Source: Spirosoma fluviale
GTDB lineage: Bacteria > Bacteroidota > Bacteroidia > Cytophagales > Spirosomataceae
Direction: 5' to 3'
DNA: 32,624 nucleotides
Assembly (NCBI GenBank): GCA_945906795.1
Contig: CAMDRO010000025.1
Span: 1-32,624 of the forward strand
Part shown: positions 17,604 through 18,276 of the stretch, piece after piece
Position numbering within the stretch: the first letter of the stretch is position 1
Layout of the letters: each line of letters begins with the position of its first letter
Notes under the pieces: model-generated
Told to the model about the DNA's origin: nothing
The model's input: only the letters and a program-made list of their open reading frames with translations
Database searches by the model: none
Position numbers and translations under genes: made by a program

Positions 17604-18068
17604 ATGAACAGTAAAATAACAGTGATTAGCGTCCTACTAGGTTTGGGATTAATCAATTCGACAGTACAAGCAAGCGGTTTGACAGGAAAAACAACAATTG
17701 TCCTCGTGTCATCAAAGAGAGAAACTCTTTCAGAAGTAATTCAAACATTAATATTAAAAGAAAATTCAGGAACTAAGACATCATCAGCAAGCCTAACCAT
17801 TTCAATATTAGAGGATTATCAAAAAAATAATCAAAATTACCTTAAAATAAGCACAGAAGATAAAGCCATCTTTAACGCAACGATCAAAACTATTATTTCG
17901 CAAGGAGATAATATTACAGACGCTAGTACGTTAACATGGATAAAAGAAATAAGTAAATCAGCCAAAGCAATCAATATCGTCTGGGCTGTAGTAGAAGAAG
18001 AAAAAAGTATCGAAACTTTGACAAACAATTTGTCTGAGACCTCATTAGATACCATTATCGTATTCTAA
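17604..18068 (+). CDS. Small secreted protein of unknown function
   Basis: I do not recognise this 154-residue protein. It has a clear signal peptide (MNSKITVISVLLGLGLINST, cleavage probably after VQASG or near residue 24), so it should reach the periplasm or beyond. The mature part is about 130 aa, rich in Ser, Thr, Ile, Lys and Glu, with no Cys and no obvious catalytic motif. It ends in alternating hydrophobic residues (LDTIIVF). It is not a lipoprotein, because no lipobox Cys is present. A textbook promoter precedes it, and it is followed within 17 nt by the first of two repeat-terminator modules, so its mRNA probably ends at 18156 or is processed there. Confidence 0.8.
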   Translation: MNSKITVISVLLGLGLINSTVQASGLTGKTTIVLVSSKRETLSEVIQTLILKENSGTKTSSASLTISILEDYQKNNQNYLKISTEDKAIFNATIKTIISQGDNITDASTLTWIKEISKSAKAINIVWAVVEEEKSIETLTNNLSETSLDTIIVF

Positions 18069-18084
18069 TTTAGATTGTAAGTAG

Positions 18085-18111
18085 TTTTCATAGTTAAATA
18101 GGTTTAGAGGT
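18085..18111 (+). repeat. 27-nt direct repeat, copy 1
   Basis: The 27 nt at 18085-18111 are identical to 18203-18229, with core AGTTAAATAGGTTTAGAGG. Identity stops abruptly on both sides. The copy is followed after 6 nt by a terminator hairpin. Confidence 0.95.
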
Positions 18112-18117
18112 ATTCAG

Positions 18118-18156
18118 AAAAGGTGTTGTTTTTAACGACACCTTTTTATTTTTTTT
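18118..18156 (+). terminator. Intrinsic terminator of module 1
   Basis: AAAAGGTGTTG (18118-18128) pairs with CGACACCTTTT (18136-18146), 11 bp with one G-U and a 7-nt loop. It is followed by T-A-T8. It ends the transcript of the secreted-protein gene and/or the small RNA. Confidence 0.92.
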
Positions 18157-18202
18157 GCATTAAACTTATATTATCTCCATAAAATCAGTATATTCGTATA
18201 AA

Positions 18203-18229
18203 TTTTCATAGTTAAATAGGTTTAGAGGT
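18203..18229 (+). repeat. 27-nt direct repeat, copy 2
   Basis: This is an exact copy of 18085-18111, offset by 118 nt. It is followed after 5 nt by a different, stronger hairpin. Flanking sequence is unrelated apart from a TAnATT-like box at the same upstream distance. Confidence 0.95.
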
Positions 18230-18234
18230 TACAT

Positions 18235-18276
18235 AAATAAGGCCAGAAGTTTCTTCTGGCCTTATTTTTATTTATT
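18235..18276. terminator. Strong hairpin terminator shared by module 2 and metG
   Basis: A perfect 15-bp stem (18235-18249 with 18253-18267, core AAGGCCAGAAG) has a TTT loop and is followed on the plus strand by TTATTTATT. It lies 24 nt after the convergent metG stop codon and could also end metG transcription, though the minus-strand side lacks a clean T-run outside the stem. Confidence 0.88.

Follow-up and report, generated by a model that had tools for sequence, protein, structure and literature searches.

Most of what is known of post-transcriptional control in Bacteroidota comes from the genus Bacteroides. FopS (RF04319) comprises small RNAs (sRNAs) of ~65-70 nt with an unstructured universal 5' region, which are multicopy, include a 3'-UTR-derived member, are driven by sigma-ABfr promoters and pair at the start codons of glycan genes, where a block of initiation has been shown (PMC11697453). 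GibS, another Bacteroides sRNA, carries a long single-stranded 5' seed that pairs around start codons, and a block of initiation has been shown for it as well (PMC7366714). A survey of the open-licence literature retrieved no paper on sRNAs of Aquirufa, Arcicella, Flectobacillus or other Cytophagales and none on a Bacteroidota sRNA in carbon catabolite repression, and the literature matches listed included none on conserved intergenic elements in these bacteria.

The locus considered here lies in a 32,624-nt stretch of DNA from Spirosoma fluviale (the window), in which the first-pass annotation had singled out two modules, each made of an identical 27-mer and a different hairpin, as a candidate new sRNA family. 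This observation is confirmed as a whole, and the reading as an sRNA family is supported overall, with its sRNA half and its 3'-UTR half each holding in part. We consider it likely that the locus harbours two members of a multicopy family of trans-acting ~70-nt sRNAs that block the start codons of secreted and sugar-catabolic genes. Each RNA would consist of an invariant, unstructured 27-nt 5' segment and a terminator hairpin free to vary. Copy 2 would be an independent gene, with a -7 promoter box of its own, and copy 1 would most likely be released from, or form the end of, the 3' UTR of the upstream gene. The core UAGGUUUA would pair with UAAACCUA/AACCUAU in the 5' UTR of a target, and UUUUCAU with the start codon and the codon next to it (AUGAAAA). 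By analogy with FopS and GibS, the natural result of such pairing would be a block on the translation of a secreted and sugar-catabolic regulon; that the RNAs are transcribed, pair with targets in the cell and repress them in response to a signal is what we infer. The observations discussed below are in silico ones and concern conservation, the promoter box, the hairpins, motif enrichment and the gene set. If the proposed model is true, FopS-like control would extend to abundant freshwater Cytophagales, with a whole predicted regulon marked by a readable leader motif, and sRNA control of sugar use without Hfq or RbpB would become directly testable.

The locus between pth and metG

The features of the locus are collected in table 1. 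The two 27-nt segments, earlier reported as identical, indeed agree exactly. Even with 3 mismatches allowed, none of 100 shuffles contained a match to the 27-mer, and at the same tolerance it occurs in its own genome at these two places only. In copy 2, positions 18203-18209 read UUUUCAU, which is complementary to AUGAAAA. The neighbouring genes, identified with Pfam, are pth upstream and metG downstream, the latter on the opposite strand from 18291. A coding explanation was considered and rejected, both 27-mers lying outside the listed same-strand ORFs, with the upstream ORF ending at 18068 and metG on the other strand, in agreement with the earlier statement that nothing coding explains the segments locally. 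The ORF directly upstream matched no Pfam family and distantly resembles the 160-aa ORF that occupies the corresponding position in Pseudarcicella (25% identity over 97 aa, E 5e-08). Copy 1 starts 16 nt past the stop codon of this ORF and therefore falls within the 3' UTR of that gene.

Table 1. Features of the 27-mer locus, in positions of the window.
Feature	Position	Strand	Remark
154-aa secreted-looking ORF	17604..18068	+	directly upstream of copy 1
TAGATTG degenerate box	18071..18077	+	upstream of copy 1
27-mer copy 1 (class B)	18085..18111	+	predicted single-stranded 5' seed region
UAGGUUUA seed core, copy 1	18099..18106	+	reverse complement of the 5'-UTR motif UAAACCUA
Terminator hairpin 1	18117..18147	+	14 bp, then T-tract
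TTTGCA element	18154..18159	+	~50 nt before copy 2
TATATTCG, -7 promoter box (TAnnTTTG type) of copy 2	18189..18196	+	
27-mer copy 2 (class A)	18203..18229	+	predicted sRNA 5' end; probable start 18201-18203
UAGGUUUA seed core, copy 2	18217..18224	+	
Terminator hairpin 2	18235..18267	+	15 bp, then T-tract

Conservation and distribution of the 27-mer

A search of 59 genomes with up to 3 mismatches, a check suggested in the first-pass annotation, retrieved further copies of the 27-mer. It is present in 36 of the 37 genomes of the same genus, which we take to be Aquirufa (35 with two copies and one with a single copy; G001 has none), and in none of 22 genomes from other families. A second draw of 200 genomes of the family gave matches in 58, which represent 10 of 36 genera. 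The copies frequently form tandem arrays, with up to seven copies outside the genus. Among the places listed, nearly all 27-mers are identical to the query, and the invariance therefore does not arise simply from searching for exact matches. When named genomes were scanned for exact copies of the 23-nt core, 61 stretches were retrieved, including ones from Aquirufa, Arcicella, Flectobacillus, Pseudarcicella and Sandaracinomonas. Genes resembling pth and metG in sequence again flank the copies in Pseudarcicella and in a Flectobacillus-like genome. The proposed sRNA family is widespread in a part of the Cytophagales of the Flectobacillaceae/Spirosomaceae type.

With a covariance model of the family (R1), 77 of 241 genomes of the order had matches at E <= 0.05, most of these matches being weak. 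The weak matches across the order (L130-L142) look like TTTTCATAG...TTTAG...terminator and may be distant members or AT-rich pre-terminator look-alikes. Arrays of the Arcicella type (L073, L082) contain altered elements, in which the 27-mer is split by a ~15-nt insert and the terminator hairpin is missing, alternating with normal copies. A record titled Cellulophaga sp. BC115SP (L067) has a locus very like that of Flectobacillus longus (L091), and its name may be wrong.

Two tandem, identical copies, and Arcicella arrays with up to six copies and altered elements, would fit a non-functional tandem duplication or mobile repeat whose copies are kept alike by recent gene conversion. We regard this explanation as very improbable, since the 27 nt are identical over 10 genera while the sequence between and after them varies freely, pairing in the hairpins is maintained by double changes (see below), and loss or drift of the 27-mer in close relatives was not seen in 36 of 37 genomes.

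Terminator hairpins

The strong hairpin with a U-tail noted earlier behind each copy is borne out by folding: a 71-nt piece with hairpin 1 folds at -16.3 kcal/mol (z -3.7) and a 70-nt piece with hairpin 2 at -21.4 kcal/mol (z -4.9), with a U-tract at both. The gap between 27-mer and stem, previously given as 6 and 5 nt, is in fact 5 nt in both copies. The two hairpins were also said to share no sequence; within this genome they are indeed unrelated, yet the downstream parts can be aligned as paralogues when genera are compared. Stem pairing is kept across genera and classes, with a double-sided change in at least one sequence for all nine predicted pairs, several pairs being broken in 6-12 of 42 sequences. 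A stem of at least 7 bp and a T-run lie behind 121 of 135 distinct copies (142 distinct contexts less 7 dropped as too close to the end of a locus). For class A copies a further, smaller hairpin was predicted; it is disrupted in the class A copy of the window and was set aside.

Promoter boxes and two classes of copies

The 135 contexts fall into 51 like copy 2 (class A) and 84 like copy 1 (class B), and many of them come from near relatives, because of which the class counts are not independent. TAnnTT[TC]G lies at -15..-8 in 51 of 51 class A contexts, and AAT precedes TTTCATAG in all of them as well. In class B, TAnnTTTG or TAnnTTCG was found at -20..-3 in 0 of 84 contexts and the AAT in one. 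A TTG at the usual -33 spacing occurs in 0 of 51 class A contexts, and TTG[CT]A, ~12 nt further upstream than that spacing, in 47 of 51. The corresponding element of the window, TTTGCA, could be a site for a regulator or activator of the sRNA promoter, or a -33 box at unusual spacing. Consecutive copies on the same strand follow the order B-A (40 cases) or B-B (31), never with A first.

Of the TAnATT box that had been described 6 nt ahead of each copy, the presence stands (18071-18076 and 18189-18194) and the distance does not, the box ending 8 nt before the 27-mer. TAGATTG before copy 1 is not a full TAnnTTTG, and a promoter there is therefore doubtful. Judged by sequence features, copy 2 looks like a free-standing sRNA gene with its own Bacteroidota-type -7 box, and copy 1 is probably 3'-UTR-derived. 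The earlier proposal of two ~70-nt RNAs with a fixed 5' segment and the conserved 3'-UTR element that had been offered as an alternative each hold in part: copy 2 belongs to a class that always has the box, and copy 1, of a class that never does, is located close behind a stop codon.

Taken to its full extent, the latter alternative holds that the 27-mer is a 3'-UTR or pre-terminator element aiding termination or mRNA stability of the preceding gene, without any RNA acting in trans. The 16-nt distance of copy 1 from a stop codon fits this explanation, as do the overlap of a 22-nt core with the Hsp70 (dnaK) stop codon in some isolates and the fact that weak model matches elsewhere in the order also precede terminators. 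It is nevertheless unlikely, given that a promoter box stands directly before the copy-2-type 27-mer in 51 of 51 relatives and that a termination aid leaves unexplained why the complement of the 27-mer is the top 5'-UTR word (see below). As to the Hsp70 genes themselves, the 22-nt core ATAGTTAAATAGGTTTAGAGGT overlapping the stop codon is directly followed by a terminator (L123-L125, L214; G004, G017, G024); a pattern search found this arrangement in six isolates, and the sequence was seen in three.

Comparison with FopS and GibS

At gathering score, Rfam gave nothing at the locus, the only match in the window being a tRNA at 514-585. The earlier verdict that no known RNA class is recognisable is borne out in this respect, with a weak likeness to FopS and the complementarity to start codons having been overlooked. 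An E-value threshold yielded 27 weak matches. Those to AaHKsRNA41, MicC and others, mostly terminator-like and on either strand, were discarded; FopS is the one weak match aligned over its full length, on the correct strand, in both copies. Its consensus, UUUUUCAUgGU..AUUAGAUUUA.AGGUUAA, aligns only weakly with the window copies. These score 22.7 and 21.7 bits (E 0.15 and 0.24), whereas the gathering score is 56. In three of four Aquirufa genomes copy 1 is the best match to the FopS model in the genome, with 29.8, 27.8 and 26.6 bits, all below the cut-off, at a lax threshold at which even unrelated control genomes give matches. In the genome of the window, copy 1 is absent from the list of FopS-model matches, in which 150 of 496 candidates were scored; no match over the cut-off was found in 12 Cytophagales genomes, and the Pseudarcicella copies gave no FopS match at E <= 0.5. 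A partner of the RbpB type (RRM_1) was found in 0 of 4 Aquirufa genomes (the control in Bacteroides ihuae was recovered) and Hfq likewise in 0 of 4 (the control was found in five genomes). As the FopS-model matches are below threshold and RRM_1 was not found, we do not file the window sRNA as a member of FopS.

In our reading the window sRNA works like FopS, and common descent is possible. It resembles FopS in its predicted size of ~70 nt, with an unstructured 5' part and a terminator, and in the presence of several paralogues per genome with a common 5' region. As to the promoter, of the sigma-ABfr type in FopS, the -7 box is present in class A, where a TTG at the usual -33 spacing is lacking, and absent from class B; pairing at start codons is predicted in silico in Aquirufa and not, by the motif, in Pseudarcicella. 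Unlike in FopS, the seed core UAGGUUUA is a different one, matched to a genome-wide 5'-UTR word, and the copies form a tandem cluster between pth and metG rather than being dispersed. With GibS the sRNA shares a long single-stranded 5' seed at start codons; GibS differs in that it is one sRNA only, which carries two seeds and has a non-canonical promoter, and the likeness is one of description.

A leader motif complementary to the 27-mer

The first hint of targets came from weak reverse-strand matches of the R1 model in Aquirufa, which included start regions of secreted proteins. An unbiased count of words was made in 800 kb of G006 (evenly spaced) and 400 kb of the genome of the window, comparing the 25 nt before the start with the preceding 35 nt in 970 crudely called genes (first ATG, at least 80 aa). 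AAACCTA, the reverse complement of the 27-mer core, ranked first of 7235 7-mers before start codons (32 genes, against 2 further upstream), TAAACCT second (26 vs 2) and AACCTAT fourth (22 vs 4), all three being words of the anti-seed. The enrichment is confined to the sense strand (TAGGTTT 1 vs AAACCTA 32), the reverse complements being absent or rare. The first C of CCT mostly lies 8 to 18 nt ahead of the start codon; another group of sites has it at -3. The motif marks 24 of 311 and 33 of 659 genes in carriers of the 27-mer, and 4 of 321 and 3 of 339 in two genomes without it (G149, of the same family, and the AT-rich G045). In Pseudarcicella, which has three copies of the 27-mer, it is not enriched (4 of 314 genes vs 6 in the far window, in a sample of 400 kb out of 6.2 Mb), a result that speaks against a regulon shared by every carrier.

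The longer anti-seed pattern AACCTATTTAACTATGAAA has 106 matches in 12 Aquirufa genomes, or 76 without 24 sRNA and 6 dnaK-end copies; a reversed-pattern control gives 56 in the same genomes, and the raw count alone is unimpressive. Of 32 Aquirufa sites, mostly picked for an ATG, 25 begin an ORF that stays open over ~97 codons or more; in the genome of the window, where all six sites were examined, two are ORF starts. With sRNA copies removed, five genomes of other genera gave 49 matches vs 70 for the reversed control; 6 of 11 sites examined there are start regions, including those of genes for an MFS sugar transporter, a sugar isomerase-like protein and a GMC oxidoreductase.

Catabolic leaders are known elsewhere to be controlled by proteins in the manner of Crc/Hfq. 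The AAACCTA motif might likewise be read by an RNA-binding protein or another RNA, with its match to the 27-mer coincidental or the 27-mer bound otherwise, and the lack of enrichment in Pseudarcicella, despite an identical 27-mer, is in line with this. We deem such a reader rather improbable, because what the sRNA contains is complementary to the motif rather than a copy of it, the enrichment is on one strand, neither Hfq nor RRM_1 was detected in the four genomes searched, and the chance that the top 7-mer falls among the 21 anti-seed words would be ~21/16384.

Pairing with start regions, as the proposed sRNA would require, was assessed by duplex energies of the 27-mer (cut-off <= -14 kcal/mol) against dinucleotide-shuffled seeds. 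Duplexes were predicted for 28 of 332 genes in sample 1 (shuffle mean 7.4; 1 of 300 shuffles as good), 27 of 327 in sample 2 (5.9; 2 of 300) and 24 of 311 in the genome of the window (4.8; 0 of 300). They are also enriched in Pseudarcicella (19 vs 5.8; 2 of 150 shuffles as good), and G045 gave 8 vs 4.9 (27 of 150). G149, which lacks the 27-mer, shows no excess at <= -16 kcal/mol (44 of 120 shuffles as good); at -14, the loosest cut-off, the real seed beats the shuffles there (3 of 120 as good), because UUUUCAU suits any ATGAAA start.

With the core fixed, a shuffled 5' flank loses a mean of ~3 kcal/mol (0 of 300 as good), an effect that may stem partly from the abundance of ATGAAA starts; a shuffled 3' flank pairs no worse than the real one (122 of 300 as good). 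With the 5'-UTR part alone, secreted genes as a group are weakly shifted (p 0.068, with 8 of 100 shuffles as good) and the best-scoring tail is enriched. In a gap-free alignment on the motif, matches above background lie mainly over UAAACCUAU, and long contiguous pairing is therefore not general.

Predicted target genes

Most of the 57 motif genes appear to encode secreted proteins, and sugar-catabolism families dominate among them. Signal-like N-termini, scored with a crude home-made predictor, occur in 35 of the 57 vs 216 of 913 others (p 5e-9). Among the Pfam families listed (25 of 107), GFO_IDH_MocA is represented 6 times, the xylose-isomerase-like TIM barrel 4 times, and 3-keto-disaccharide hydrolase, carboxylesterase and MFS 3 times each, with single cases of GH95, GH39, GH109, rhamnosidase, sialidase-type BNR, GntP and DHDPS. 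No such cluster is seen in 57 random control genes, where among the families listed (25 of 124) none of these kinds has two or more members. Some motif genes are housekeeping-like (GroES-like and ribosomal-protein-like ORFs), and the list therefore contains chance members. From their N-terminal sequences we take the ORFs at anti-seed sites to be sialidase-like, 3-keto-disaccharide hydrolase, carboxylesterase, Gfo/Idh, sugar isomerase, Kelch and CarboxypepD_reg/SusC-like; part of these assignments was also tested with Pfam. As read from the sequence, the twin RNAs suggest a switch that would hold sugar-digesting genes off.

In five isolates (L203-L207), a 15-nt seed complement of the ACCTCTAAACCTATTCA type, its core kept and its flanks variable, lies behind the end of a susD-like gene, so named from ~25 C-terminal residues, and is followed by a terminator. 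This 3' region could be a sponge for the sRNA. A precedent is the trap of ChiX by chb mRNA in enterobacteria, where the transcript of a sugar operon with an sRNA-complementary site serves as a sponge; the predicted arrangement is alike, and ChiX itself differs in being Hfq-dependent and unrelated in sequence.

A wider proposal, which we put forward tentatively and with somewhat less than even confidence, is that FopS would be the Bacteroides branch of an older 'anti-AUGAAAA' sRNA superfamily of Bacteroidota. UUUUCAU would be kept throughout, and the middle of the seed would drift with a genome-wide leader code (AAACCTA in Aquirufa) by which the mRNAs of sugar catabolism would be singled out and silenced together, with neither Hfq nor RRM chaperones involved, the susD-like 3' UTR acting as a sponge that relieves silencing upon induction of its locus.

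A genome with a changed seed (G241) is a separate case. Because a wider search there is not enriched (24 matches besides the sRNA-like copies vs 22 for the reversed control), co-variation of seed and targets is only a lead in this genome, in which three tandem sRNA-like copies with the changed middle CATAGTTTAAGGTTAAG (L409-L411) lie behind an OmpA-like gene and one start region (L413) matches the changed seed.
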